From positions 1 through 41,782 of the forward strand of contig JAJCXO010000039.1 in assembly GCA_029263395.1 (NCBI GenBank): DNA of 41,782 bases, read 5' to 3'. Shown here piece by piece: positions 6,537 through 32,909 of this stretch; positions within the stretch are counted from its first letter, which is position 1, and every line of letters begins with the position of its first letter. Below the pieces are notes generated by a model. It made no database searches. It had not been told where the DNA came from and saw only the letters and a list, made by a program, of their open reading frames with translations. The DNA is from Acidobacteriota bacterium (lineage in GTDB: Bacteria > Acidobacteriota > Thermoanaerobaculia > Multivoradales > J023). The translations under genes and the position numbers were made by a program.

Positions 6537-9500
6537 GTGGTCGAGCAGATGCCTGAGCAGCAGGCACCGTCTGAGCAGAAGACGCGGTTGGGCAAAAGCC
6601 TGACACGAAGGCGTTGGCTCGCTCCGGTGTCTTGGGTGGTGTTGCTTCTCGGGGTGCCTAGCTTGCTCTATGTGGCCTATGTGGCAGGTAAGCTGCAAGA
6701 CCTCTCCGAGCACAATTTGCGCACCCTGGGCAACGCCGCGGGACAGATCGAGCGGGCGTTGGACAACGCCGGTGCCACGGCACGGAATCTAGCCAAGGAC
6801 TTCGGTTATGCCTGTGAGTTTCTGCTCCGGCAACCACGGCTGTCCCTGGTCGAGCCAACCCATTGCACAGATCTCGAAGACTTTCAGAAAAGTGATCAAG
6901 CGGAGAGTCGACTCGAAGCTGCAGCCGGCGGCCGACTTCTGCTGGTGACCGATATCCCGGATCTTTCCTCCGCCGATTTGGCCGATACCGGCTCGTCGCC
7001 TGGCACCAGCTTCCAGCTCGAAGTTAGGCTCGATCAGATTTTGGCAGATGTTCCGTTAGAGGGAGCCTTCGACCATCTGGTGATTGTCGAAGGCGATGGA
7101 CAGGTGGTTGTCCAACGCGGTCCGGACGCGTTGCGCCTCACCTCGCTCGCCAAGCTGACGACAACCGATAGCATCAAACTCTCGGTGGCCGATCTTCAAA
7201 GCGCCAGCCGAGTCACCCAGGTGCATTACGCCGAGCAGGACTACGGCCTGCTTTGCCAGCCGCTGCGACCGCCGTCTGATCTTGTCCAACGCGACCAGGA
7301 CGACACCCTCGGCAGTACCTGGGTACTGTGTGGCCTAGTCAGTTCCGAGCGTTCGGTGGCGAATGCGTTGGCGGTGTCGCCATTGTTGGTGCTCATTCTC
7401 TTGCTGCTTCTCCTCTTGGGACTCCTGACTTGGCCCTTCTTCAAAATCTTTACAATGCGGCAGCGGGAGCGCTTGCGTTTTCTGGATGGTTATTTGTTGA
7501 GCGTCAGTACTTTTGGCCTGTTGTTGCTGATGGCGCTGCTGCTGCTTGACTTTCAGAGTTACGCCAGCTTGCGGAACCTCACCAAGGATCGGTTGGCAGC
7601 GTTAGCGGCGGATCTCGACCGTCACTTGGTGGGGGAATTGCAACAGATGGCCCGGCAGCTCGACGCATATGATGAAATTGTCGCCGCAACCGCCGTCAAC
7701 TTGGGAGGCTTGAGAACGGATGTCAAATTGCTGCGGCAGCGCAAGTCAACCTCGGCACAAGCGCCAGCAGCAACGGCTGTGCCAGTATCAGAAGCGGTGC
7801 CGGTTTTGGACGACAGTGAGCCGGATGCGATAAAGGGTCTCGACCTACCGTATCCTGACCACTACCCACACCTGTCGTCAGTGTTCTGGATGCGGCCGGA
7901 TGACGGACGACAATTCATCAAGGCGACAATTAATGATCGCAACACGCCACCGGTCGCGTTGTCTAAACGGGCCTACTTCCAGCGAGTTCAGGACCATGAT
8001 CGCCTGTGGCGGCTGTCAACGGTAGTGGATCGGTGGAGTTCCGGAGACACTGGTGAGCCCTGGGATTCGGAGGTTTATGTCGAGCCGATTCGTTCGGTGA
8101 CCACCGGCGAGTCGAGTGTGGTGCTGTCGACGTGCTCGCGCATCAGGGCCGAGGGGTCGGACGACTCACCAAAGGGCGAATGTCCTAAGCCCGGCGAACG
8201 GGTGGTTGCGGCCTTGTCGACGCCGCTGGTCTCTATCGCCGACCCTGTGATGGGTCCTGGGTTCGGATTTGCGATTATCGATGACGATGGCAACGTGTTG
8301 CTGCACTCGGACTCCCGCCGAGCGTTGGCGGACAATCTTTTCGACGAGTTGAGTCAGCCGCGCCGTCTGCGTGCTGCCCTCGAGTCACGGACTGACCGGG
8401 CGATCGAGAGTGACTATTTGAGCCGTCCCCATCGGCTCTGGATCCGTCCGATGCGGGGGCTACCCTGGACCGTCGTCACCTTCTTCGACAAAGAGGTGTT
8501 ACGGACAGCCAACCTCGAGGTCCTGACTCAGGCGATTGTGATCGGCACGCTCTACCTTGTGGTCTTCTATCTCATCCCGTCGGTGATCTACTTGAGCCGC
8601 CGCCGTCGCCATACCAGTTGGTTGTGGCCAGATGGCAGCAAACTGAGGCTTTACAAACGCTTGGTATGGATGTACGGCGTCCTGTTTCTGGCCTTGTTGC
8701 TGGTGCTGCACGTCGTGCCCCGCGGCTACACCTTGATCGCAGGCTTTCTCTTTCCGTTGACCGCGGTGGTGATCACCGTGTTGCGCATCCGTTTGTGGAA
8801 TCGACAACATCTGTCAGTCCTGCGGGGTACTAAAGGTGTCAAGGGCTCGGATCGTGCTGGCCTGGCGCTCGACATCTTTCCTCAACTCCTTCTGGCAGCA
8901 GTCATCCTGAGCGCGCCGCAACGGATGGAAATGCTCGGTAGCGTGATCTCGGTGATGGTGTTGACCTTTGTTGTGTTGTTCTATGTCGCGCTGCGATGGT
9001 CGCCGAAAGACGGTCGGGTTCGACTCCGGCTGAATCGCGCCAAGTCGTTGCTGCCAGATGAATTTTTGCCCTGGCATGATGTTGCGGCGGTGCTGTTTTG
9101 GCTGTTGGTTGCGGTGCTCCCGGCGAGCTGCTTTTTCAAGGTGGCGCTCGAAGACCAGCAGCTGTTGTTGCTGAAGATGGAGCACCTGCACTTGCGAGAT
9201 CAACTCGAGAGGCGAGATTGTGCCGTTGATGAGCGCTATCGGCGGGTCAGTGTTGGGCAGCCCGGGTTCCTAGCCAATCGTAAGATTTTTGTTGGAGGGA
9301 CCGATGCTTATCAAGCCTCGACCAGCATCACTGCAGCCCATTATGCTGGGGAGGCTGTCTTCGAGGATCTACGATCGGAGCTCGCCAAGCCGGTTGGTGA
9401 ACGCTGGTACTCAGATCTCCTAGCGGATCATGAACCGCTCTACAACGACACGTCGGTCCGTTTGCGCTACCTGGCACCCCCGGCAGCCAGCGACAGCTCG

Positions 9501-10799
9501 TGGCAGTGGCGTCGGCGCGTTGATGGCGAAGTGATGTTCGAAGTTGACCGCAGCCGGTGCAGCGAGCCGTATGTTTTGCTGTCGTCGGTGCCCTTGGCTA
9601 TGCCCGCGGTCGGTGGGTTGGTGTTGGCGGGCGGTCTGTTGTCGACCATGGTGTTGTTGGCTTGGGTGCGGTGGGTATCACGTCGGCTGCTGTTTGCGCG
9701 CCTCGAGCAGCAGGTACGGCGACTTCGACCCGAGGATTTGATCCGAGGAGAGATTCGCACCAACGTCCTGGCGCTGCTGGCGTCGCCGATCGACCGGCGG
9801 GCAATCATGGCGTCGAATCGTTACGACTACGTGGCGCTTGGTGACGAGGACAGCCTGGCCCGAGCGCTGGAGGTTGAAGGCAAACCCAAGCCGGTGGTTT
9901 GTGATGGTTTCGAAGACGGTCTCGAGGATCCCGTAGCGCGCCGATCCAAGCTGCAAGTTTTGGAAGACTTGGTGCTCACTCATCACCGGCGGGTGCTGAT
10001 CCTGACCTCGGTAGATCCCTTCAACGATCTCTTTTCTTTTGCCAGCCCAGGGCACGATGCCCCCACCAGCGCTCCAGCCTCTGGGGCCCCCGATGACGAC
10101 GAGCAGCGCCGTTGGGGACGTTTGTTGAGCCGCTTTACTTTGGTGCCTGTGGCCCTCGCCCGGCAGCAGGCCACGGCGGTCGGCTCAGACGGTGCTGATG
10201 ACCTGGAAAGTACAGATTCGATGGGAGGGCGTCCGGCCTGGTTGGAGCGTGAGCTCAACGCCACCTTACATCTGCGCCGACTCGTCGAGCAGCGCCAAGG
10301 GCTCAGCAGCGATGCGGTGTCCCACATCAGCCGGCGAGAGGCTTTGGAGCGCATCGTCGAATCCGCGGAGGGCTACTATTGGGCGTTGTGGACCGCGTGC
10401 TCCCGCGACGAGAAGCTGGTGCTGGTCCAACTCGCCGAAGAGCGTCTCGTCAACCCCAAGCAGAATCGTACGGTGCGCCGCCTATTACAGCGTGGGCTGG
10501 TGGTGCGTGATCCGATGCTGCGGCCGATGAATGAGAGCTTCACGCTCTTCGTCAGCTTGATTCGTCTACCGCAAGAAGTTCGCGAGTGGGAGCAGCCGAG
10601 CCAAGGCATGGGTTGGACCCACATCCGCTGGGCGTTCATGGCGCTTCTGGTGGTCATCGCGCTGTTTCTCTCCACCACCCAGAAGCAACTTCTCGAGACG
10701 ACCTTCGGTTTCGTCTCGGCGCTCGGGATCAGCCTGCCCGTGTTGCTCAAATTGGTGTCGTCGGTCAACAAGCCGAGCCCCGGCGGTCTCGACGGTTGA
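6537..10799 (+). CDS. Large multi-pass dCache receptor of the CHAT/subtilase locus
   Basis: A 1420-residue membrane protein. A first helix at about 28-50 is followed by an extracytoplasmic region to about 278. Two helices (about 281-302 and 316-338) then lead into a second extracytoplasmic domain, about 339-660. This looks like dCache: WMRPDDGRQFIKAT, AYFQRVQDHD and GFGFAIIDDDGNVLLHSDS are visible. About six helices follow (662-871), then a third outer loop (872-1015) and a helix (1021-1045). The cytosolic part has a Walker-B-like RVLILTSVDPF but no Walker A, then a winged-helix-like segment with LVLVQLAEERLVNPK. Two C-terminal helices end it. Start GTG 6537 or ATG 6549; neither has a clear ribosome site. 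It heads the sigma/CHAT/anti-sigma/subtilase run and is inferred to be its sensor. Confidence 0.8.
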   Translation: MVEQMPEQQAPSEQKTRLGKSLTRRRWLAPVSWVVLLLGVPSLLYVAYVAGKLQDLSEHNLRTLGNAAGQIERALDNAGATARNLAKDFGYACEFLLRQPRLSLVEPTHCTDLEDFQKSDQAESRLEAAAGGRLLLVTDIPDLSSADLADTGSSPGTSFQLEVRLDQILADVPLEGAFDHLVIVEGDGQVVVQRGPDALRLTSLAKLTTTDSIKLSVADLQSASRVTQVHYAEQDYGLLCQPLRPPSDLVQRDQDDTLGSTWVLCGLVSSERSVANALAVSPLLVLILLLLLLLGLLTWPFFKIFTMRQRERLRFLDGYLLSVSTFGLLLLMALLLLDFQSYASLRNLTKDRLAALAADLDRHLVGELQQMARQLDAYDEIVAATAVNLGGLRTDVKLLRQRKSTSAQAPAATAVPVSEAVPVLDDSEPDAIKGLDLPYPDHYPHLSSVFWMRPDDGRQFIKATINDRNTPPVALSKRAYFQRVQDHDRLWRLSTVVDRWSSGDTGEPWDSEVYVEPIRSVTTGESSVVLSTCSRIRAEGSDDSPKGECPKPGERVVAALSTPLVSIADPVMGPGFGFAIIDDDGNVLLHSDSRRALADNLFDELSQPRRLRAALESRTDRAIESDYLSRPHRLWIRPMRGLPWTVVTFFDKEVLRTANLEVLTQAIVIGTLYLVVFYLIPSVIYLSRRRRHTSWLWPDGSKLRLYKRLVWMYGVLFLALLLVLHVVPRGYTLIAGFLFPLTAVVITVLRIRLWNRQHLSVLRGTKGVKGSDRAGLALDIFPQLLLAAVILSAPQRMEMLGSVISVMVLTFVVLFYVALRWSPKDGRVRLRLNRAKSLLPDEFLPWHDVAAVLFWLLVAVLPASCFFKVALEDQQLLLLKMEHLHLRDQLERRDCAVDERYRRVSVGQPGFLANRKIFVGGTDAYQASTSITAAHYAGEAVFEDLRSELAKPVGERWYSDLLADHEPLYNDTSVRLRYLAPPAASDSSWQWRRRVDGEVMFEVDRSRCSEPYVLLSSVPLAMPAVGGLVLAGGLLSTMVLLAWVRWVSRRLLFARLEQQVRRLRPEDLIRGEIRTNVLALLASPIDRRAIMASNRYDYVALGDEDSLARALEVEGKPKPVVCDGFEDGLEDPVARRSKLQVLEDLVLTHHRRVLILTSVDPFNDLFSFASPGHDAPTSAPASGAPDDDEQRRWGRLLSRFTLVPVALARQQATAVGSDGADDLESTDSMGGRPAWLERELNATLHLRRLVEQRQGLSSDAVSHISRREALERIVESAEGYYWALWTACSRDEKLVLVQLAEERLVNPKQNRTVRRLLQRGLVVRDPMLRPMNESFTLFVSLIRLPQEVREWEQPSQGMGWTHIRWAFMALLVVIALFLSTTQKQLLETTFGFVSALGISLPVLLKLVSSVNKPSPGGLDG

Positions 10800-10895
10800 T
10801 CTACTGGCCTCTGGCGACAGGCTGATCGTCTAGGCCGGGCAGTCACACCAACGGGGAGAGCGCATAAACTTGGTACCGCTTCAGCGGCTTCGCGT

Positions 10896-10949
10896 GCGCC
10901 GGAGCGCGCACAATGGCACTCTAGCGCCGGAGCGCGCATAATGGAACTC
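10896..10949 (+). repeat. Duplicated hairpin/ribosome-site/ATG cassette before the sigma gene
   Basis: Two 26-nt copies, 28 nt apart (10896-10921 and 10924-10949), differ at two positions. Each contains GCGC-CGGAGC-GCGC followed by CA(C/T)AATGG. The GGAG ribosome site therefore lies in the loop of a small GC hairpin, eight bases before an ATG. In copy one the ATG (10913) reads Met-Ala-Leu-stop (TAG 10922-10924). In copy two it is the sigma factor start. A partial third likeness, GGAGAGCGCATAA, lies at about 10855-10867. Confidence 0.8.
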
Positions 10950-11690
10950 GGCAAGAGGCCCAGGGTAAGAAAGGAGCGGCTCATCAGGAATATTCTTCCC
11001 TTTACCCGCCGCCGCAGCGTCGTAGATCCAGCAGCCTCAGGCAAGTCACCCAGCGATGAGGAGCGATCTGATGCCTCGGATGAGGGCGACGTCGGTGGGC
11101 AGCTGACTGCGCTACTAGCGGGAGATGTCGACGCTGCAGCCTGGCTCTACGATACGTTTTCTCGCAATCTCTTCCGGCGGCTGCACGGGCGTTATGGCGG
11201 ACATCCCGGAGTTGATGTCGAAGATCTTCTGCATGATGCCTTTGTGATGTTCTACCGTGGCAACGGCAAGATCCTGCGGGATTACCTCAGTCGAACCGAG
11301 GCTGGTGGGCGGACCGTGGCAAGCCTCGAGCGTCGCCTATGGGACGTCACGTGTGGTTTGGTGGCGAATCGCAAGCGGTCGGTCAAGGGGCGCCAGCTTT
11401 TGCCCTTGAGCTCTGTTGACCGTCCCTCGGCCGAGCCGACGCCGGAACGCGATTTTCTGGGGCGCGACGAGCTCGACCGACTCGACGCTTGTCTTCGTCG
11501 CCGCGGTCAGCGAATTTACCTCTACTTCTGTCTTCGCTTCGAAGACGGACTGGCACCGCGAGAAATCGTCACGGCTACTGGTTGGTCGCGCAAAGCGACT
11601 TACAAACTTCGCCAGGCACTCGACGAAGCAATCCGAGCCTGCTGCGAGAGCCTTGAGTTGGCGCTGAGCTTGCCAGAGCAGGCTGGGTGA
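10941..11690 (+). CDS. ECF-type sigma factor of the CHAT/subtilase locus
   Basis: A 249-residue sigma70-family protein. A basic N-terminal extension (1-50) precedes region 2 (about 65-125, with LYDTFSRNLFRRL and DVEDLLHDAFVMFYR). Region 4 lies at about 180-235, with IYLYFCLRFEDGLAPREI and GWSRKATYKLRQALDEAI as the helix-turn-helix. The family directs RNA polymerase to dedicated promoters under anti-sigma control. Its stop overlaps the CHAT start by 4 nt (GTGA), implying translational coupling. The start ATG lies inside the second copy of a duplicated ribosome-site cassette. A GGAACC at 6463-6468, upstream of the receptor gene, could be a target -35 element, but no matching -10 is evident. Confidence 0.85.
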   Translation: MELGKRPRVRKERLIRNILPFTRRRSVVDPAASGKSPSDEERSDASDEGDVGGQLTALLAGDVDAAAWLYDTFSRNLFRRLHGRYGGHPGVDVEDLLHDAFVMFYRGNGKILRDYLSRTEAGGRTVASLERRLWDVTCGLVANRKRSVKGRQLLPLSSVDRPSAEPTPERDFLGRDELDRLDACLRRRGQRIYLYFCLRFEDGLAPREIVTATGWSRKATYKLRQALDEAIRACCESLELALSLPEQAG

Positions 11691-14656
11691 AGGTGATGAA
11701 CCTCGGGTTGGCGATCCTTGCAATCTGGCTACTGAGTTGTGAGATGCCAGAGCGCCAACACGGGAGGCTGGAGCTTTCGACGGTGATGCGTCATCACGAT
11801 GAAGTCGTGAGCCGTCCGAGCGGCGAGGTCCTGCCGATGTTTTTGGGGGCCGGCAGCTCAATGGGAGTATGTCTGGAGACCAACGCCGATCTCGACACCA
11901 GTCAGTGGCGAGGCCAATTGACAGTCGACGGGCGCTTGGCTTCCGATGGGTCGCCGCCGGCGGCACGCAGTGGCCGAGTGTTGTGCTTCGATGGCGAGAT
12001 GCCCGAGGGACTGGAACCCAGCGTTGAGTTGGACGTCTGCCTGACGATTGAAGACAGGTTTGACGGGCGCCGTTGGCCGGCGCTCTGTCAACCCTCACTG
12101 CTGATGCTCGAGCTTGCGGAGCGCGAGGCGATCGAGGCGGATAAACAGCGTTTGCTGGCCGAAGCCAAGGCGTTGGACGTGTGGCAACTTGTGGGTCGCC
12201 TCGAGCAGTTGGCGGCGCGTGCGGTAGCCGCCGGCCTGCCAATGCAAGCAGCTCGTCTCGAGCTGATTGCAGTTTACTTTCTGCGGCGGGAGGGGGGACC
12301 TGAAGCGATCGCAAAGGCCCAGCAGCTGCTCAGCCAGCCTATGAGCTGGCAGTCTCACCCGGCGGCAGGCGGCCTCAGCGCCCAGATCGAATTGGAGCGT
12401 GCGGCGCTCGAGTTGGCTGTTTCAGCGGATGATCAGGCTGCCAAGCGGGCTTGGCTGCACCTGTCACAGGCGGATGCGTTGTTTCGTCGATCCGCCCACC
12501 GCCTCCGGTTGTCGGCGACGATCCGTCGGACCGCGTTGTTGGCGCGGTTGGGCTTCACGACCGAGGCCGTCGAGCAGTTGCAGTCGGCTTCTCAGGATTG
12601 TGCGACTGCCCACTGTTTGCCGGCAGTTCAAAAGATGGCGTCCTCCCAGTTGGCCTGGCTGGTGCTACAAGACCCCTTTGCTCGTCAGTCACAGCTGGCG
12701 GCGGCCGAGGCGGATCTACGAGCGCTACTCGAACCCTCGGCCGGAGCTTCGAACGAGTCGTTGGAGCACGCCAACGAGTGGTTGAACCTGGCCTATCTCC
12801 AGGTTCGGCAGGGGCTCGACAGCAGTGCGGCCCGGGTGGTTGCGAGAGGCTTGATCGCGAAACACAAGGCCAGTGGCCGTCGGGCCGATGAGCTCAACGG
12901 TTGGGCGTCGGTGCTCGATGGTCTGGTGGAATTGACGATGGGGCAGGCACAGGCCGCGCTCGAAGCTTGCGCCGCCGTGACCAGCGCGGTGGATGCGCAG
13001 CTAGCTGCCGGCGCAGCGGCTTGTGAGGGGCGGGCGTTACGTCGTTTGGGGCAACTGGACCAGGCGGCAGCCACTCTCGGCGACGCGCTGCACCATCATG
13101 GCGTTGCAACACAACGTCCGACATCGTCAGGTTTTGCCCAAGGTCCGGGGCCGAGGGCCGAGGCTTTCAAGCACCTCGCCAGGGTCGAGATCGAGCGCGG
13201 TCGTCCCGAGAAGGCTTGGCAGCTGATGGCCGAGCTCGACGGCCTGGCGTTCCTGGAACGGGACCGTCAGACCTGCCGTTTACAGGCGACGACGCCAGAG
13301 GTTGTGGAGCGTTGGCGCGCAATCGAGCGCGAGTCGGATGGCATCCTCGACCAGCTGGCGCGAGCCGATCCGCCAACCTCAGTGCGAAGACGTCAGCAGG
13401 TGCAAGCCATGCGGCGTGAGTTGCGTGCTCGTTGGCGAACGCTGCAGCGCGACTGGCCGGGCTGCGAATTGTCTCCCGGCGTGTCGACCGGGGAAGGGTT
13501 TCGGGCCTTTACGGTCGAAGACGAAGTCATTCTGCTGCGCCGCTCGGCTGCCGGCGAGGTGACTCTCGAGCAACGCACGACGCTTTCTCGACAGCGTCTG
13601 CTGGAGATCGTCGATGGTGTCTCGCGGGCGATGATAAGTCGAGACCAAGCTGACGCGACGTGGCGAGCCGAGCTTGCGCCTCTGGCTGCGGCGCTAGTGC
13701 CGAAGGCGATCGAGCGTTGGCCAGAAGTCAGTCTCTACCGCTTGCATGGTGCTCTGCAAGGGGTACCGCTGGCGGCCTTACCGTTGCCTGAGGGCAGCGT
13801 TGGTGGTACCGAAAACAGTGGATCTGACGGTGCCGGATCTGACGGTCCTGGATCTGACAGGGCAGGGCGCTGGTTGGTCGACGTTACCGTGCCGGCACTG
13901 GTGGGGGTTGGCAGTCGTCCGCTAGCGACTCCGGCTGCCACGGGTCCTGGGGTCTTCTTGATCGATCCTGATGGTAGTTTGCCAGAGGCCTCCACGATGG
14001 AGCCGTATTATCGCCAGCAATTTCCCCTGGCGCGTATTTTGGCGGGTGCAAACGCTAGTCGTGTCGGCGTGCGGTCTGCATTGACCGGCAGTGGGTGGCT
14101 GCACGTTGATGCTCACGGTCGTTATGAAGACAGCTTCCCTGAGCTTTCTGCCATGGTTCTGCACGATGGCCAGTTGGCCTGGCCAGAGCTTGCCGCCCTG
14201 GCGTCGCCGTGGCGTTTCGCCAATCTCAGCGGCTGTCAGACGGGAAGCTCCCAATGGACGCCGGACAGCGGCCGCTTCGGACTTGCCGGTTTGTTGACTC
14301 AGGTGGGGGTCCGTTGGGTTGTCGCAAGCCGAGCCAACTTGCTCGATCGATTTGCTGCCGAGTTCAATCGTACGTTCTACGCCGCATTGGCTGACGGAAA
14401 CACGGTCCCTGAAGCCCATGGCCGAGCCTTGCGTTCCCTCGCCAGGCGTTATCCGGTGTCGGTGTGGGCTGCGATGATGATCGTCTCCGGTGCAGTGGCT
14501 CCGGATCCTCCGCCATCGGCTGCAGTGGGTGATCTGAACTCGAGTATTGATGTGGGGGGCAAACATTCATCGTCCCGAATCCTCTCCAAGAGAAGGTCAG
14601 CGGCGCCGGATGAACCGGTGGCATTGGCCTTCGACCTAGAAGGAATGGCTGGATGA
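11687..14656 (+). CDS. CHAT-domain cysteine protease, predicted lipoprotein with helical repeats
   Basis: A 989-residue protein. A short lipoprotein-type signal ends in LLSC (Cys18) when translation starts at the coupled GTG 11687; starting at ATG 11696 would remove the only Lys of the n-region. A beta-rich N-domain (about 20-135) has four cysteines. TPR-like helical repeats run from about 145 to 560, a coiled stretch to about 600, and a C-terminal CHAT caspase-like domain from about 620 to 940. The catalytic pair is intact: His810 in VDAHGRY and Cys850 in LSGCQTG. CHAT proteases are activated by partner or ligand binding and cleave specific proteins; the target is unknown. A 15-bp repeat adds a GSDG-type loop (about 712-726). 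It overlaps both neighbours by 4 nt. Confidence 0.88.
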   Translation: MKVMNLGLAILAIWLLSCEMPERQHGRLELSTVMRHHDEVVSRPSGEVLPMFLGAGSSMGVCLETNADLDTSQWRGQLTVDGRLASDGSPPAARSGRVLCFDGEMPEGLEPSVELDVCLTIEDRFDGRRWPALCQPSLLMLELAEREAIEADKQRLLAEAKALDVWQLVGRLEQLAARAVAAGLPMQAARLELIAVYFLRREGGPEAIAKAQQLLSQPMSWQSHPAAGGLSAQIELERAALELAVSADDQAAKRAWLHLSQADALFRRSAHRLRLSATIRRTALLARLGFTTEAVEQLQSASQDCATAHCLPAVQKMASSQLAWLVLQDPFARQSQLAAAEADLRALLEPSAGASNESLEHANEWLNLAYLQVRQGLDSSAARVVARGLIAKHKASGRRADELNGWASVLDGLVELTMGQAQAALEACAAVTSAVDAQLAAGAAACEGRALRRLGQLDQAAATLGDALHHHGVATQRPTSSGFAQGPGPRAEAFKHLARVEIERGRPEKAWQLMAELDGLAFLERDRQTCRLQATTPEVVERWRAIERESDGILDQLARADPPTSVRRRQQVQAMRRELRARWRTLQRDWPGCELSPGVSTGEGFRAFTVEDEVILLRRSAAGEVTLEQRTTLSRQRLLEIVDGVSRAMISRDQADATWRAELAPLAAALVPKAIERWPEVSLYRLHGALQGVPLAALPLPEGSVGGTENSGSDGAGSDGPGSDRAGRWLVDVTVPALVGVGSRPLATPAATGPGVFLIDPDGSLPEASTMEPYYRQQFPLARILAGANASRVGVRSALTGSGWLHVDAHGRYEDSFPELSAMVLHDGQLAWPELAALASPWRFANLSGCQTGSSQWTPDSGRFGLAGLLTQVGVRWVVASRANLLDRFAAEFNRTFYAALADGNTVPEAHGRALRSLARRYPVSVWAAMMIVSGAVAPDPPPSAAVGDLNSSIDVGGKHSSSRILSKRRSAAPDEPVALAFDLEGMAG
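13820..13864 (+). repeat. 15-bp tandem repeat, three copies, inside the CHAT domain
   Basis: Units GGATCTGACGGTGCC, GGATCTGACGGTCCT and GGATCTGACAGGGCA encode GSDGA, GSDGP and GSDRA. They fall in a surface loop just after the conserved LQGVPLAALPLP segment, so copy-number changes would keep the frame. Confidence 0.9.
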
Positions 14657-15444
14657 ATCGAAGAGAGCCCGACGAGTTGTTGCACAGGTTGGCGGAACGT
14701 CAGTCCTCGGGAAGATCGGACGCCGTCTTGTCGATTGACGACGCGAGCCTAGAAGCGTATGCCGAAGGCCGCCTATCGGCGGCTGAGCGGCTCGGAGTCG
14801 AAGCGGTGTTGGTCGATAGTGCTTCCGCTCGCTCGCGACTGCTGGAGCTACGGGGTGTAGATGCAGCGGGGCCGTCGCCGTTGTTGCGTCGTCGGGTGCT
14901 CGAAGGAATTCCGCGCCCCCGTCCGCGTCGACGCCGACGGTGGCAAGCGGCAGTGGCAGCGATTGCCGCTGTCTTGTTGGCGGTCCTCGGACTACAACTA
15001 CAAGCGCCTGAACCACTTCCGGCAAATCTCGACTTCGAAGTCCGGGCGTTCGGAATCGCCGACGAGCGAGGAACGGTGGCAGGGGATCGAGTCCAAGCTC
15101 TGCCTGACACCATTCTTCGCTTCGAAGTTGCCCCGGTTGATGCCGCGGAAGCCGATGTTGCCTTCGGACTTTATCGCTGTGGGAAAGCGTCCTGCCGTCG
15201 TCTTGCGGCGGCAGACGGTTTGACCGTCGAGGCGGAACGCGGCGCGGCGTTGATGTTCGGGCGGGCCGAAGCTCTCCTCGGATCGCGAGCAGGTAGCCAT
15301 GTCCTCTGGGTTGTCGTGGCAAGGCCGGGTGGGTTGCCGCACGAAATCGAAGTGTCGTCCGATCAAACCCTCTCGGCAGCGCTTTCCGCCGAGGGTCGGC
15401 GCCGAGTCATCGAGCAGCATATCGATCTCTTGGCTGCGCCTTAG
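14653..15444 (+). CDS. Single-pass anti-sigma-factor-like protein
   Basis: A 263-residue protein. The cytosolic N-domain (about 20-68) has the anti-sigma pattern DDASLEAYAEGRLSAAER, normally found after the zinc motif, but lacks the HxxxCxxC zinc ligands. A proline/arginine-rich stretch precedes one membrane helix (about 97-117). The outer domain (about 120-255) is beta-rich with a cysteine pair near YRCGKASC. Membrane anti-sigmas hold their sigma until degraded or rearranged; here the partner would be the sigma at 10941. The gene overlaps the CHAT stop by 4 nt (ATGA). The outer domain could contact the CHAT lipoprotein or the subtilase, which is inference. Confidence 0.72.
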   Translation: MNRREPDELLHRLAERQSSGRSDAVLSIDDASLEAYAEGRLSAAERLGVEAVLVDSASARSRLLELRGVDAAGPSPLLRRRVLEGIPRPRPRRRRRWQAAVAAIAAVLLAVLGLQLQAPEPLPANLDFEVRAFGIADERGTVAGDRVQALPDTILRFEVAPVDAAEADVAFGLYRCGKASCRRLAAADGLTVEAERGAALMFGRAEALLGSRAGSHVLWVVVARPGGLPHEIEVSSDQTLSAALSAEGRRRVIEQHIDLLAAP

Positions 15445-15519
15445 CCATTCAATGAATGATTTGTGGAGCATGTTTCGAGGTTGGCCTCGCTGTGCTCCAG
15501 ACCGCGAGAGGAACTCATC

Positions 15520-17178
15520 ATGATGTGTTTGTTATCGATCGCTCGTGCCCTGTTCGTCCTGTCCGTTCTGTGCGGTTTCAGCGTCCCTGTAGCTGCCGCC
15601 GCGGCAAGCGACGTTGCCCCGATCCATTGGGAACGCCGTGAGTGCCCGGGTGGATCGCCGCCGGGCGACGCAACTCTGTTGTTTCGATGTGGCGCGGATG
15701 TCAGTTACCACTCGGCGCCAGCTGGTCGCGAAGCGCCCCTTCCTGGGGGGTGCCAGATCACCTCCGGTGCAGCGGAATCACCAGCGGTGTATCCGGGCTC
15801 CGATGTCTTCACCAAGATCGACGGAGATTATCCGTGTAGTGACAGTGCTTGCTTCTGCGAGTTTGAAGCGTGTGAGCTGGACGGTCAGCCATGGGTCGCG
15901 GTCATTGACCGTGACAACTGGCACGGTCGCAGCCAAGCTGGGTTGATTGCGGAGATGGTTGGGCCGACACAACATGTGGCATTGCTCGATCTCGAGGCAG
16001 CGCTAGCGGAGACAGCACTGGATGGACTTGGTGCCGTCACCGACCTCAACGTTCTGGCTCGGCTGTGTCAGTTGATCGACATCGGAGAAGCAGAAGGCGC
16101 GCCGGTGATGCCGTCGGTGGTGTCGATGAGCTTTGGTCGTGTGGCATCGTGCGCCGATTCGAGCGACGCTGGTGAGTCGGGAGGGACGGCGTCCAACCCC
16201 CGTTCCCGGGAGCCTGGGTCGACCCTGGCTGGCGAGATCAGTTGGGCTCTCGAGGAATTGCGGGAAGTCCATGGGGTGATTCCCTTGGCTGCCCACGGCA
16301 ACCATGGCTCGGCGCTGTTTCCAGCTAGCGATGCTTCGGTGTTGGCAGTCGGCGCGCTTGATCTGTCAGCCTACCGGGCGCCTGGTTTCGAGATTGCTGC
16401 TTCTTGGGAGACGCCTGCGGGTGCGAACGCGCTGTTTCCGGGCAACGGAGTGTGTCTGCCCTTCGATGATTCTTTAGGTGACGGCTATTGGCGATCGCCA
16501 GCGGGTTCGTCCCAGGCCAACGCCCTGGCGGCGGGTTGGGTAGCGGACGCCGTGGCGGGCGGATGGTTCAGCGTTGACCATTTGGCCGGAGCATCACTTC
16601 TTTATCCGTTTCCAGGAGACCTCAGGACACCGGCAGATTTTGCGTTGGCCAAGGGCGGTACGTTGATTCCCGGCACTTGGTCGACCCCTGCCAGCGAGTT
16701 GATTGGCCGCTTGCTCGACCCGCGCCACGCCTGCTGGCAAGAGGACGACTTACCTCGTGCGGTGTTCGCGTCGCCCGGCCCAATGGTTGATCTTGTGTCG
16801 GTTTTGCCAAGCCCGGAGCAGTTGGCTTGCGAGGAGCATGTCCAGACTCCCGACACTGACTACTGTATTCCATGCCTCGGAGCCGGCGGCATCGGCAAAG
16901 ACAGGGCCGGCGTGATCACCACGCTTCAGATTGATCTCTCGGCGCCAGCTGTGCGCAACTCTAACGTGACGGTCAACAGCCTGGCGCTAAGGGTCGGTGA
17001 AGAGCAACGATTGCTCGAGCTGGCCGACGGAACACTGGCCGATCTTGGGCTCGGTGTAGTGGATATCCTGACTTTGACCAACGTTGATATAAGACTTGGT
17101 GACGAGGTTTCTTTGATCTGGGAAATGGAATGGAATGGCCTGAGTTTTTGGACCTCTTCTCCAGTGCACTTGCCGTGA
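15520..17178 (+). CDS. Exported subtilisin-like (S8) protease with shortened Asp-His loop
   Basis: A 552-residue protein starting at ATG 15520, chosen because GAGAGGA lies seven bases upstream; a longer GTG start at 15463 would bury the signal peptide. The signal peptide covers about 1-29. The subtilase motifs are present in order: Asp130 in VAVID, His135 in HGRSQAGLIA, the VVSMSFG strand, oxyanion Asn261 in AAHGNHG followed by FPASDASVLAVGALD, and Ser331 in AGSSQANALAAG. Only four residues separate Asp and His, far fewer than usual. Many cysteines suggest disulfides. The last 90 residues form a beta-rich tail. It begins 75 nt after the anti-sigma-like gene and closes the locus. Candidate roles are processing the anti-sigma or activating the CHAT protease. 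Confidence 0.82.
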   Translation: MMCLLSIARALFVLSVLCGFSVPVAAAAASDVAPIHWERRECPGGSPPGDATLLFRCGADVSYHSAPAGREAPLPGGCQITSGAAESPAVYPGSDVFTKIDGDYPCSDSACFCEFEACELDGQPWVAVIDRDNWHGRSQAGLIAEMVGPTQHVALLDLEAALAETALDGLGAVTDLNVLARLCQLIDIGEAEGAPVMPSVVSMSFGRVASCADSSDAGESGGTASNPRSREPGSTLAGEISWALEELREVHGVIPLAAHGNHGSALFPASDASVLAVGALDLSAYRAPGFEIAASWETPAGANALFPGNGVCLPFDDSLGDGYWRSPAGSSQANALAAGWVADAVAGGWFSVDHLAGASLLYPFPGDLRTPADFALAKGGTLIPGTWSTPASELIGRLLDPRHACWQEDDLPRAVFASPGPMVDLVSVLPSPEQLACEEHVQTPDTDYCIPCLGAGGIGKDRAGVITTLQIDLSAPAVRNSNVTVNSLALRVGEEQRLLELADGTLADLGLGVVDILTLTNVDIRLGDEVSLIWEMEWNGLSFWTSSPVHLP

Positions 17179-26211: not shown

Positions 26212-26766
26212 ACGTTGCCGACGATTGTTCTGTTGACTGCCTCGTTGATGATCCTGATCGGGGCTACCGGCCTCGAAGCTTCTGAAAAGGATCATTGGCC
26301 GCCGCCGTTTACTGCCGAACAGATCCGCGACGAGTGGACGGAAGGATTCTGGCTCGATACCCGGGTAACAACCGAGGCTGGTACTCAGGTCTCTCGCACC
26401 GAGGTGCTGAAATGGTCGGAGACATCGGTCGAGCTGCACGAGGTTCCCTTGGAGGACAGCGACGCTGGTTTGCGCCCAGCCGGTGATGCGGGCCCAACTC
26501 AATCTGTTCAGTGGCAAGAGCTCAGCGATCACGCATTGTTCCCCCGGGCCTTGACCGAGCGTCGGCGTGAGACGCAGCCAACGGCGCTCGGCGAACTCGA
26601 GGGTTGGGTGTTTCGTCTCACGGCGAGCGACGGCTCAACGTCGGAGTTCTTCTTTGCGGATCGGTATCCCGGGCCGCCAGTGAGTTTCATTCGCTGGCAG
26701 GACGGTAAGCAGATCTTCAAGTCCGAGCAGGTTAGCCGTTCGACTTGGGAGAAAGGGGATCGATGA
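26203..26766 (+). CDS. Secreted protein of unknown function, coupled to an ECF sigma gene
   Basis: A 187-residue protein with a clear signal peptide (Lys2, Lys3, then a hydrophobic core to about residue 20, cleavage probably after LEA or ATG-LEA near 26). The mature part is polar, without cysteines or membrane helices, and has several short beta-type segments (TRVTTEAG, SVELHEV, GWVFRLTASDG, PVSFIRW). I do not recognise the family. Its stop overlaps the start of the ECF sigma gene by 4 nt. It might be the extracytoplasmic part of that sigma's signalling, but it has no membrane helix or anti-sigma domain, so it is not a conventional anti-sigma factor. Confidence 0.75.
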   Translation: MKKTLPTIVLLTASLMILIGATGLEASEKDHWPPPFTAEQIRDEWTEGFWLDTRVTTEAGTQVSRTEVLKWSETSVELHEVPLEDSDAGLRPAGDAGPTQSVQWQELSDHALFPRALTERRRETQPTALGELEGWVFRLTASDGSTSEFFFADRYPGPPVSFIRWQDGKQIFKSEQVSRSTWEKGDR

Positions 26767-27719
26767 CGTTGCAGACGCCGAGTGAGGAGAGGCTGCGCAA
26801 GCAGCAGCGCTCGCGGGAGCAATTCCTGGCGATGGTCGGCGACTTGCGGCCGCAGTTGCACCGCTACTGCGCTCGCCTCCTCGGTTCGGTTCTGGACGGT
26901 GAGGACATCGTCCAGGACACATTGGCGACGGCCTATTTCAAGCTACCGGTGGTGCGGGAGCCGCGGGATCTACGAGCTTGGCTATTCCGGGTTGCCCATA
27001 ACCGGGCGATGGACGAACTCCGTCGGCGTAAGGTCCGGTCTGGAGAAGGTGACGAAGCCCCTGAGATCGCGATCGAGGTGGATGATCCTGTAGCGAGAGA
27101 GCAAGCGGTTGGTGAGGCGCTCGAGGCGTTGATCGATCACCTACCGGCCAAAGAGCGGGCTTGCATCGTGCTCAAGGAGGTGATGGATTTTTCTCTGCAG
27201 GAGATCGCCACAAGAGTTGGGTCGTCGGTCGGGTCGGTCAAAGCGGCGTTGTACCGTGGACGTGGCAAGCTGGAGGGGAAACAGCGCGCGCCTTGCTCGG
27301 TCTCTATGTCGCCGGTGAAGACGTCGCCAGTTGCCCCAGAACATCGCCGACTGTTGGAGGCCTATGCTCGTTGTTTCAACGATCGTGCGTGGGACGATTT
27401 AGTCCGTTTGTTGGCGGCCGATGCCCGACTCGAAGTCCTGGAAGTTTACGACGGCTTGGGCCATGGCGCGTTCTCCGATCGCTATTGCTTCAACTACTCT
27501 CAGTTCCCCTTTTCTTGGCGGTTTCGCCTTGGCGAGCTCGAAGGCGAGACCTTGCTGTTGGTCGATCGCTACTTCGGCGATCGCGCCGAGTTATTCTCCG
27601 CGGTTCGCCTTTGGAGTCGGGACGGCGAGATTGCCAGGGTTAGGGATTATCTGCACGTGCCGACCTACCTGCTGGAGTCGCTTGGCCTCCAGCCCACGGA
27701 GCCGCTACCGCCGGTCTGA
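26763..27719 (+). CDS. ECF sigma factor with C-terminal SnoaL-like domain
   Basis: A 318-residue protein starting at ATG 26763 (AAAGGGGA upstream, ATGA overlap with the previous stop). Region 2 (about 20-85) has GEDIVQDTLATAYFKL and AWLFRVAHNRAMDELRRR. Region 4 (about 120-175) has LPAKERACIVLKEVMDFSL and GSSVGSVKAALYRGRGKL. A C-terminal SnoaL/NTF2-like domain (about 195-305) contains LLEAYARCFNDRAWDDLVRL and LVDRYFGD. Sigma factors of this layout (ECF41/ECF56-like) are generally regulated by their own C-terminal domain in place of a separate anti-sigma, which fits the absence of one here. The C-terminal domain may sense a small ligand. Confidence 0.88.
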   Translation: MTLQTPSEERLRKQQRSREQFLAMVGDLRPQLHRYCARLLGSVLDGEDIVQDTLATAYFKLPVVREPRDLRAWLFRVAHNRAMDELRRRKVRSGEGDEAPEIAIEVDDPVAREQAVGEALEALIDHLPAKERACIVLKEVMDFSLQEIATRVGSSVGSVKAALYRGRGKLEGKQRAPCSVSMSPVKTSPVAPEHRRLLEAYARCFNDRAWDDLVRLLAADARLEVLEVYDGLGHGAFSDRYCFNYSQFPFSWRFRLGELEGETLLLVDRYFGDRAELFSAVRLWSRDGEIARVRDYLHVPTYLLESLGLQPTEPLPPV

Positions 27720-30713: not shown

Positions 30714-32909
30714 ATGCCAGCGATCGCCGAGAACCAGAGGCTAGGCTTGCCGCGTCGATCCGTCGCCCAGAGAAAACGGCACCCTTCGAAGAAACGGCAC
30801 CCCTCGAAGAAACAGCCTCTCTTGAGGAAACAATGCCTCTCGAGGATACCCTGGCTAGGAGCAATCATGCTGCTATCGGTCGGCTGGCTAGCGCCTCCGT
30901 CTCCGACTGTAGCCCAAGTGCCGCCTGTTCCGCACGAGGTGGGCCCCTCGGGAGAGGTCGAAGAACAGATCGATACCTTCTTGCGGCTCAGCGAGCAAAA
31001 CCGAAGTAAGAACCCCGAGCTCGCGATTTCTTATGCGGAACGCGGGCTGGAGTTGGCGAATCGCCAAGAGGACTCGGTGCGGATCGCGGCGTTGTCGATG
31101 CAGTTGGGGCACGCACTGGCGGATCGCGGCAAACAAAACGCTGCGCTACCAAGTTATCTCCAGGCGTTGGAAAAATACCGGGAGCTGGACGACTTTCTCG
31201 GCACAACCGAGGCTCTCAACGCTGCTGGTGTCGCCTACTACTACATGGGTTTCCTGCATCTGTCGCTCGAGTTCCACTTGGAAGCTCTAGCCGGACGTGA
31301 ACAGCTGGCGTTGGAAGATGAGACTGCGAAGTCCTTGAACAACATTGGCTTGGTCTACTTTGGCAATCGAGACTATGTTGAGGCGGTGGCGTTTTATGAG
31401 CGGGCGCTGGCGTTGAAACGCAAGATTGGTGACCAGGAGAGCGTGACCAAAACTCTGTCTAATCTTGGCTATGCGCACTTTCAGTTGGAGGAGTACGACG
31501 TTGCGTTGCGTTATCAGACTGAGGCGCTGGAGCTGAGCGAATCGATCGGTTTCGATCGGGGAATCGCTTATGCCCTCAACCTGATCGGCGATATCGAGCG
31601 CGCCATGGGCAAGTCGCAAGCGGCGTTGGCCGCCTATCGGCGGTCCTTGTCGCTCTATCGACAGGACGGCGATCAACGTGGGGTAGTGATGGTACTCAAC
31701 AATCTCGGGGCAGTGCACCGAGATCTCGGAGACCTCCAGGCTGCGAGCAAGTTCTTGTTGGAGGCGACCCTCTTCGGGCGCGAAATCGGGGCCAAATTGC
31801 AGCTTCGTGATGCTTTTGATCTGCTCGCCGCGGTGCGGGTAGAGCAAGGAGATTTCGCGCAAGCGCTCGAGGTCTACAAGCGCTCGGTGGCCTACAACGA
31901 CGAGGTTCTCGGCGAGGAGAGTCAACGCCAGTTGGCCGAGATGCAGGTGCGCTACGAATCGGAACGTCGAGCTCAGGAGATCGAGCTGCTGAGACGCGAC
32001 AATGCAATCCAGGAGATTGAGATCCGGCGCGGTGGTCAACTGAGAACGGCATTGGCAGTTGGATTGGTTTTGGCAGCGATGATCGCCGCTCTACTGTGGG
32101 TGCTGTTTCGACAGAATCAGCAGGCCAACGCACAATTGGCGGCGAAAAAAGAGGAAGCTGAAACTGCCCGTGCAGCGGCACTGGAGGCGAACGAAGCCAA
32201 GAGTCTGTTCCTCGCCAACATGAGCCATGAGCTGCGTACGCCGCTAACCGCGATTATCGGCTATAGCGATTTGCTGATCGAGGATGCCGAAGCTGCAGGG
32301 GCAGCACAAACCCTGCGCGACCTTCAGAACATCCGGGGCTCCGGCAAACATCTAATGACGCTGATCAACGGTGTCCTCGATCTCTCCAAGATCGAAGCTG
32401 GCAAGATGACTCTGTCCACCACAACTTTCAAGATTCCAGCTTTGGTCGAAAGTGTGATCAATACCATCCAGCCGCAGGCGGACAAATCTCGCAACCAGCT
32501 TGTAGTCGACTGTCCAGAAGATATCGGCAGCATGCATGCGGACGAGACCAAGGTGCGCCAGACTCTGTTCAATCTGCTCTCCAACGCCTGCAAGTTTTGT
32601 CGAGATGGTGAAGTGGCCCTGGTCGTCGAGCGGCGTGACTCGTTGGACGATCCACGGGTGGTCTTCACCGTTCACGATACTGGAATCGGCATGTCTCCCG
32701 AGCAGTTGGAACGGGCGTTTATCGAGTTCGAACAAGCCGATTCGTCCACCCAGAGGCAATTTGGTGGTACCGGGTTGGGGCTTCCTATCAGCCGCAAATT
32801 TGCTCGCATGATGGGGGGAGAAGTCTCGGCAACTAGCTCTCTCGGTGAGCGGTCGTCGTTTGTGCTCGACATGCCAGCCCGGGTGGAGATCCCGCGATTG
32901 GTCAGCTGA
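30714..32909 (+). CDS. TPR-containing sensor histidine kinase
   Basis: Up to 731 residues. A basic, repeat-built N-terminus precedes a hydrophobic signal segment (about 46-60). TPR repeats follow (about 85-400, e.g. SLNNIGLVYFGNRDYVEA), then a coiled coil, a membrane helix (about 445-466), a second coil and the kinase core. His505 lies in FLANMSHELRTPL; the ATPase domain has NLLSNACKF, DTGIGM and FGGTGLGLPISRKF. The TPRs are predicted outside the membrane, so a protein or peptide signal is likely. No receiver domain or adjacent regulator is present. The start is unsure: ATG 30714, TTG 30822 (gives a classical signal peptide) or ATG 30867 (best ribosome site, GGAG, but a short signal). Confidence 0.88.
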   Translation: MPAIAENQRLGLPRRSVAQRKRHPSKKRHPSKKQPLLRKQCLSRIPWLGAIMLLSVGWLAPPSPTVAQVPPVPHEVGPSGEVEEQIDTFLRLSEQNRSKNPELAISYAERGLELANRQEDSVRIAALSMQLGHALADRGKQNAALPSYLQALEKYRELDDFLGTTEALNAAGVAYYYMGFLHLSLEFHLEALAGREQLALEDETAKSLNNIGLVYFGNRDYVEAVAFYERALALKRKIGDQESVTKTLSNLGYAHFQLEEYDVALRYQTEALELSESIGFDRGIAYALNLIGDIERAMGKSQAALAAYRRSLSLYRQDGDQRGVVMVLNNLGAVHRDLGDLQAASKFLLEATLFGREIGAKLQLRDAFDLLAAVRVEQGDFAQALEVYKRSVAYNDEVLGEESQRQLAEMQVRYESERRAQEIELLRRDNAIQEIEIRRGGQLRTALAVGLVLAAMIAALLWVLFRQNQQANAQLAAKKEEAETARAAALEANEAKSLFLANMSHELRTPLTAIIGYSDLLIEDAEAAGAAQTLRDLQNIRGSGKHLMTLINGVLDLSKIEAGKMTLSTTTFKIPALVESVINTIQPQADKSRNQLVVDCPEDIGSMHADETKVRQTLFNLLSNACKFCRDGEVALVVERRDSLDDPRVVFTVHDTGIGMSPEQLERAFIEFEQADSSTQRQFGGTGLGLPISRKFARMMGGEVSATSSLGERSSFVLDMPARVEIPRLVS
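30774..30845 (+). repeat. 18-bp tandem repeat, four copies, at the 5' end of the TPR kinase gene
   Basis: Units of AAACGGCACCCCTCGAAG type start at 30774, 30792, 30810 and 30828, the last two diverged. In the kinase frame they encode KRHPSK-type residues; in another + frame they read EETAPL. Depending on the true start codon they are either the basic N-terminus or 5' untranslated DNA. Confidence 0.9.

Follow-up and report, generated by a model that had tools for sequence, protein, structure and literature searches.

The contig JAJCXO010000039.1 of an Acidobacteriota bacterium (class Thermoanaerobaculia, assembly GCA_029263395.1), which was analyzed over its whole length of 41,782 nucleotides and is called the window here, harbors a module of four genes for a putative extracytoplasmic function (ECF) sigma factor, an exported TPR-CHAT protease, a single-pass anti-sigma-like protein (gene D) and an exported S8 subtilase. 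We propose, with a probability of roughly 55%, that these genes constitute a transmembrane sigma switch that is run by regulated proteolysis. This reading is based on gene conservation and on analogy to characterized systems. The genome to which it belongs, as contig 39, measures 10.68 Mb in 291 contigs.

Gene layout and extent of the module

Five co-directional open reading frames had been described as one system in an initial annotation of this DNA, and all of them were recovered at the same coordinates (Table 1). The 4-nt overlaps that it reported were also found, with the sequence GTGA between the sigma and CHAT genes (11687-11690) and ATGA between the CHAT and anti-sigma genes (14653-14656). 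In order-A loci the sigma and anti-sigma genes flank the CHAT gene, whose start codon sits on the 4-nt overlap in 18 of 21 such loci. These overlaps suggest translational coupling, but they do not fix the stoichiometry of the products, as had been claimed. The extent of the system also had to be revised from 6537-17178 to 10941-17178, which excludes the 1420-residue gene and leaves a predicted conserved operon of four genes.

Table 1. Genes of the module and the upstream neighbor, in window coordinates
Feature	Position	Strand	Basis
1420-residue membrane protein, neighbor and not part of the module	6537-10799	+	Weak dCache_1 match
ECF-type sigma factor	10941..11690	+	249 aa as called; module-sigma profile weakly matches 6dxo and 1or7
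TPR-CHAT protease, predicted exported lipoprotein	11687..14656	+	PF12770, 5.4e-19
Single-pass anti-sigma-like protein (gene D)	14653..15444	+	Structure model; Ig-like matches; NCBIfam antisigma below cut-off
Exported S8 subtilase	15463..17178	+	PF00082, 1.3e-6; orthologue alignment; hydropathy

Conservation of the four-gene module

A profile of gene D was run over 148 genomes of the class and gave matches in 28 of them at E<=1e-6. The 30 strongest places (E<1e-13) were examined, but not all of the 23 weaker rows. All four genes are present at 19 of these places, ten are truncated at the end of a contig and hold only as many genes as there is room for, and a single one (L029) is without CHAT and S8 genes. 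Nine of the 19 complete places, which are either the window itself or had already been found by a scan with the CHAT alignment, were omitted for an independent count, so that 10 of 11 places with room are complete within the class. Among 396 genomes sampled across the phylum, six have gene D matches at E<=1e-12. Three of these lie outside the class and contain six places, of which one is cut and all five with room are complete. Combined, 15 of 16 independent anti-sigma loci with room carry all four genes. Five of eight extra loci (L031, L034, L036, L039 and L125) are below the threshold for the anti-sigma and stand outside both the 30 and the 16. The expectation that homologues of the genes recur together is thus borne out for sigma, CHAT, anti-sigma and subtilase, but not for the 1420-residue gene.

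The CHAT-alignment scan gave 27 loci, 13 of them close (E 1e-66 or better). Ten of the close loci are labelled Acidobacteria, Acidobacteriota or Thermoanaerobaculia, two "uncultured bacterium" and one Deltaproteobacteria. A complete module (L042) is labelled Deltaproteobacteria, yet its genome is placed in the order of the window. In the window genome, gene D has three relatives. Two of them have a CHAT gene directly upstream and are surrounded by the same sigma and, where the contig permits, the same subtilase, and the third stands in the order variant sigma - anti-sigma - CHAT - subtilase. At L029:5313-7489, a second sigma gene lies between a module-type sigma and its anti-sigma.

Two loci encode fusions. 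In L162, one open reading frame of 764 residues joins the anti-sigma domain, the transmembrane segment and the immunoglobulin (Ig)-like part to the mature subtilase, and in L031 one of 1201 residues runs from an anti-sigma to the mature TPR-CHAT region. The protease's own signal peptide is lost in both (judged by eye), as expected if the transmembrane segment of the anti-sigma now exports the protease. The fusions would place both proteases on the side of the membrane where the C-terminal part of the anti-sigma lies, and we regard them as the best evidence that the proteases act in the same compartment as its periplasmic part. Two further candidate fusions, L168 (641 aa) and L172 (613 aa), were rejected, as the anti-sigma starts inside an overlong frame.

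The module is embedded in a wider association of sigma and CHAT genes. The window genome contains 42 CHAT matches and 119 sigma matches (at least two are halves of one gene). An ECF-type sigma lies within 6 kb of 22 of the 42 CHAT domains, compared to 5.4 expected with independent sigma positions, in a search whose sigma profile included sigmas from some CHAT loci and may favor their detection. Because of this excess, and because the four-gene set is syntenic across families, the gene association exceeds chance. Several loci of the window genome show the order sigma - single-pass anti-sigma-like protein - CHAT without a subtilase. Thus, as far as gene order tells, the module represents one particular form of the wider sigma-CHAT association in this genome. 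In a Candidatus Solibacter metagenome-assembled genome (L065:3720-7911), a sigma gene is followed by genes for a protein with a zinc-finger-like anti-sigma motif and for a CHAT protein with a hydrophobic N-terminus (judged by eye).

The CHAT protease and the subtilase

The CHAT protein matches PF12770 with 69.2 bits against a curated cut-off of 24, and the dyad His810/Cys850 is invariant in the alignment of 35 of 35 loci, which confirms the intact CHAT protease of the initial annotation. The window protein has a lipobox (LLSC) at residues 15-18. When printed N-termini were inspected by eye, 17 of 21 order-A orthologues were seen to carry a lipobox, and the remaining four a hydrophobic N-terminal segment. 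The protease is therefore predicted to be exported as a lipoprotein. Its structure model (pLDDT 80) consists of a beta-sandwich (approximately residues 31-140), TPR-like helices (approximately 144-588) and the CHAT domain (approximately 604-934), followed by a low-confidence tail (938-989). Csx29/TPR-CHAT chains occupied Foldseek ranks 1-3 for this model; alignments gave Z 24.2 for 8d9g_A (root-mean-square deviation (rmsd) 8.5, 473 residues aligned) and Z 22.9 for 7xsr_C (rmsd 3.9, 382 aligned). Separases scored nearly as high (5fc2_B, Z 22.7, rmsd 3.1, 288 aligned). DdvA structures (8rw5/8rot) were found at Foldseek ranks 4 and 7, with a Z of 17.1 (rmsd 9.0, 491 aligned) that is not above that of TPR chains of other proteins. 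The apparent likeness to DdvA is therefore drawn from Foldseek rank and from the anti-sigma identity of DdvA, not from Z. Profile searches of the PDB with A2, A3, A5 and A6 found no functional relative, A2 and A6 matching mostly designed helical or TPR proteins, and neither did a search with the L031 protein alone.

The subtilase matches PF00082 with 28.4 bits (cut-off 21.8). Alignment with its orthologues predicts Asp149, His154 and Ser350 as catalytic residues and Asn280 as oxyanion residue, and a hydrophobic signal segment was located at residues 18-36 by hydropathy. The assignment as an exported S8 protease is thus sustained. The spacing between Asp and His is short, at five residues in most order-A subtilases, and amounts to 11 in L005 and approximately 14 to 35 in order B. 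Three of 33 rows were left out of the alignment: L027 and L034 end before the Ser motif, and L036 is in the wrong frame, its S8 also being cut. Of the 30 usable rows, 27 preserve the catalytic triad and the oxyanion Asn. Conservation of catalytic residues among orthologues, as initially anticipated, is therefore complete for CHAT (35/35) and partial for S8, where they are lost in three loci.

The anti-sigma-like protein and the sigma factor

The model of gene D shows a helical N-terminal domain of five short helices (residues 1-95), one transmembrane segment (approximately 96-116) and an Ig-like domain (approximately 128-259); the N-terminal part of the model is partly of low confidence. The single transmembrane segment agrees with the initial description of a single-pass protein. 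Its putative identity as an anti-sigma is suggested by an NCBIfam antisigma match under the cut-off (6.3e-4) and by the anti-sigma of the four-gene locus L166, which passes zf-HC2. The zinc motif Hx3Cx2C is absent from gene D. This motif occurs in approximately 56% of the class I anti-sigma (ASDI) family and is not required for membership (PMC7406223). Among neighbors of other CHAT genes in the window genome, five of ten pass zf-HC2, and the zf-HC2-passing CHAT neighbors L109, L113 and L123 are also matched by the gene D profile.

The window sigma is probably ECF-like, on weak but consistent evidence. The protein alone had no Pfam match at 0.05, so that the initial assignment holds only by way of a profile of 15 module sigmas, which weakly matches the ECF structures 6dxo_A (positions 11-63, E 0.001) and 1or7_A (positions 10-188, E 0.0092). 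Homologues of this sigma are present in the complete module loci. Because an initial sigma profile, when iterated, took in general sigmas and one response regulator, tighter profiles were used for the module count. Several sigma orthologues are approximately 50 aa shorter at the N-terminus; thus the true start may lie downstream of the called ATG. Two tandem 26-nt copies, 92% alike and 28 apart, span the called start at 10896-10949. As the orthologues point to a later start, these copies could be a leader or operator sequence.

A sigma-70-type promoter scan found one site compared to 0.8 expected. The 8-mers CTCTACGA and TGGCTCTA, which occurred in 8 loci versus at most 5 in shuffles, were dismissed as promoter candidates and read as conserved WLYD codons, because the searched region continued for 110 bases beyond the start as called. 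In 7 loci versus at most 5 in shuffles, two 4+4 dyads were also found, one of which ends in a TGGC shared with the CTCTACGA/TGGCTCTA set.

Proposed mechanism and alternative explanations

In the proposed switch, the N-terminal domain of the anti-sigma would hold the sigma factor in the cytoplasm. With the TPR and beta-sandwich part of CHAT as its sensor, an envelope signal would activate the Cys-His site of the protease, upon which CHAT would cut the periplasmic Ig-like domain of the anti-sigma at site 1. CHAT is the likely first cutter, because Csx29, its top structural relative, cuts a sigma inhibitor, as does CalpL, a protease of another type. Export would put this cut in the periplasm, so that an intramembrane protease would be needed afterwards; a member of the M50 family, together with cytoplasmic proteases, would then finish the degradation and release the sigma. 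The window genome has five M50 matches, which is permissive only, as M50 proteases are present in all 14 control genomes too. The subtilase would also work at this periplasmic domain, be it as another site-1 protease, as the activator of CHAT or in a regulatory role. The proteolytic cascade of the initial annotation thus remains the best reading, given the conserved set and the fusions, but without a receptor as its trigger.

Several points weigh against this mechanism. No cleavage site was predicted in the anti-sigma, the cleavage itself is something that we infer, and CHAT and S8 could target other proteins. The Foldseek matches listed for the gene D model are nanobody and Fab chains, which correspond to its Ig-like domain, with no anti-sigma domain among them, and a profile of nine of the anti-sigma-like proteins found no anti-sigma structure. 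Among the upstream regions of 22 order-A sigma genes, no common promoter motif was found that could be trusted. The four proteins show correlated distance matrices (Mantel test, r 0.58-0.78, 0/2000 shuffles, 16 loci), but this correlation could stem from shared descent alone, which the test cannot separate from co-evolution. Two further points concern the proteases. L029 keeps sigma and anti-sigma with no proteases in 17 kb, so that the pair does not always have the protease genes next to it. In L149, L153 and L156 the subtilase has lost His, Asn and Ser, while its gene still adjoins that of the anti-sigma.

L029 would also fit a different arrangement, in which the sigma/anti-sigma pair drives both proteases as envelope effectors in quality control or defence, with the Ig-like domain as sensor and the anti-sigma remaining uncut. 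ECF operons often hold genes of their regulon, and the big TPR region could recognize foreign or misfolded proteins. However, the proteases are fused to the anti-sigma in two loci, and the position of the order-A CHAT gene between sigma and anti-sigma, overlapping the sigma gene by 4 nt, is odd for an effector. The proximity of 22 of 42 CHAT domains of the genome to sigma genes also speaks against an effector role, which we regard as unlikely.

The inactivated subtilases raise another alternative, namely that CHAT and subtilase are signal-binding regulators that hold the anti-sigma and release it on ligand binding, much as could be imagined for a fused TPR-CHAT-like anti-sigma such as DdvA. 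Since residues were lost in three loci, subtilase catalysis is apparently not needed everywhere, and the Foldseek matches of the CHAT model to DdvA, itself a transmembrane anti-sigma, also speak for this alternative. The CHAT dyad, in contrast to the subtilase residues, was present at every locus seen, and such invariance (35 of 35) would be difficult to account for if CHAT were not catalytic. In the subtilase, too, the residues are intact in 27 of 30. A purely regulatory role of both proteins is therefore improbable, somewhat more so than the effector role, and regulated proteolysis of the anti-sigma is preferred.

The 1420-residue upstream protein

The gene of the 1420-residue protein is co-directional with the module and ends 141 bases before the sigma gene. 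This arrangement would be consistent with a five-gene set forming a single receptor-driven protease cascade, in which the initial annotation cast this protein as a dCache receptor. The protein has approximately 12 hydrophobic segments and matches dCache_1 (PF02743) with E=0.0045 and 17 bits against a cut-off of 45; three homologues gave 4.7e-4 (20.2 bits), 3.4e-5 (24 bits) and no match. It is single-copy in its own genome, and relatives occur in 8 of the 148 class genomes, its own included. At two of seven homologue loci (L140 and L143), general sigma genes lie within a few kb, but the module-sigma profile gives no match to them. None of the seven, some of which are on short contigs (L141, 9.9 kb), was found to have a CHAT, anti-sigma or S8 gene of the module. 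Nor was the protein seen in any other module locus scanned, although not every locus reaches far upstream. It was therefore rejected as a member, and a five-gene cascade is very improbable. Judged by its distribution, the 1420-residue membrane protein is a neighbor and not part of the module. Co-transcription with the module in this strain alone is possible.

Relation to known systems

Several characterized systems share elements with the module. The TPR-CHAT protease Csx29 cuts the sigma inhibitor Csx30 (PMC10028731). As in the type III-E set Csx29/Csx30/CASP-sigma, which is compared here at the level of genes only, a TPR-CHAT protease is encoded together with a putative sigma inhibitor and an ECF-type sigma. 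Unlike in that set, the CHAT of the module carries a lipoprotein signal, the putative inhibitor is a membrane-spanning protein and there is a subtilase in addition. A protease - anti-sigma - ECF sigma set is also formed by CalpL/CalpT/CalpS of type III CRISPR, where cutting of the anti-sigma starts the release of the sigma (PMC11417357). The protease of this trio is a Lon-SAVED protein activated by cA4, and the trio is without CHAT or subtilase. In RseA/DegS/RseP, a single-pass anti-sigma with a periplasmic domain is likewise cut first outside and then further (PMC10028731), but the site-1 protease of the module would be CHAT and/or the subtilase instead of DegS.

DdvS and DdvA of Myxococcus xanthus resemble the module as an ECF sigma with a transmembrane anti-sigma whose structure matches the TPR-CHAT model. 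DdvS is active once DdvA is inactivated, by a signal described as unknown (PMC4374960). DdvA is a single chain, whereas the window has separate genes plus a subtilase; L031, which holds anti-sigma and TPR-CHAT in a single chain, shows a DdvA-like layout. ECF54 sigmas of Actinobacteria have carboxypeptidase, subtilase and CHAT genes in their context according to a review, which also relates a proposal that they are controlled by proteolysis with no anti-sigma (PMC8999054). The module shares the ECF sigma with subtilase and CHAT genes, but conserves an anti-sigma-like protein. Two Sphaerisporangium loci (L055:5559-10420 and L059:5430-10435) have the order S8 - ECF sigma - small unknown protein - TPR-CHAT. 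They fit the published description and are candidate ECF54 loci. No signal peptide was seen by eye in the printed N-termini of their proteases, and their sigmas are not matched by the module-sigma profile at E 1e-3. In work on TRADD-N domains, caspase systems are noted that combine an ECF sigma with a TPR protein (PMC8195603).

The initial annotation had noted that CHAT proteases are partners in cell-death and defence systems. Such a role found no support here and was rejected, as none of the five proteins was matched by PADLOC and no CRISPR-like array was found in the window. Nor did any of the 30 window proteins scanned match a Cas protein, the search for Cas7-11 being confined to the window. 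The literature searched, which lacks most subscription journals, yielded no account of the four-gene set. The claim that the system is undescribed therefore appears to stand for the set of four, but not for its parts: the combination of subtilase, CHAT and ECF sigma has been published for ECF54 (PMC8999054), and a TPR-CHAT protease cutting a sigma inhibitor has been characterized (PMC10028731). Each element has a precedent, and the exported, membrane-based four-gene form appears to be new.

Further genes of the window

Two other genes of the window were noted in addition. A second sigma factor at 26745-27719 has a C-terminal extension past sigma4, and a single protein at 30714-32909 joins TPR repeats to a histidine kinase.

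Implications

CHAT proteases, which are separase/caspase-like, are best known from intracellular CRISPR and conflict systems. We tentatively suggest, at slightly less than even odds, that CHAT here makes the site-1 cut in an anti-sigma and does so outside the cytoplasmic membrane, with the subtilase as its partner. The module would then be an envelope counterpart of Csx29-Csx30-sigma that is free of CRISPR, of which some Acidobacteriota carry several copies in one genome and whose layout is related to the anti-sigma-CHAT (DdvA-like) and anti-sigma-subtilase fusions. The invariant CHAT dyad and the subtilases that are disarmed in some loci offer handles to separate the roles of the two proteases. 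If the suggestion is true, the logic of a protease cutting a sigma inhibitor would serve ordinary envelope signalling, and the module would be a testable relative of the CRISPR versions.

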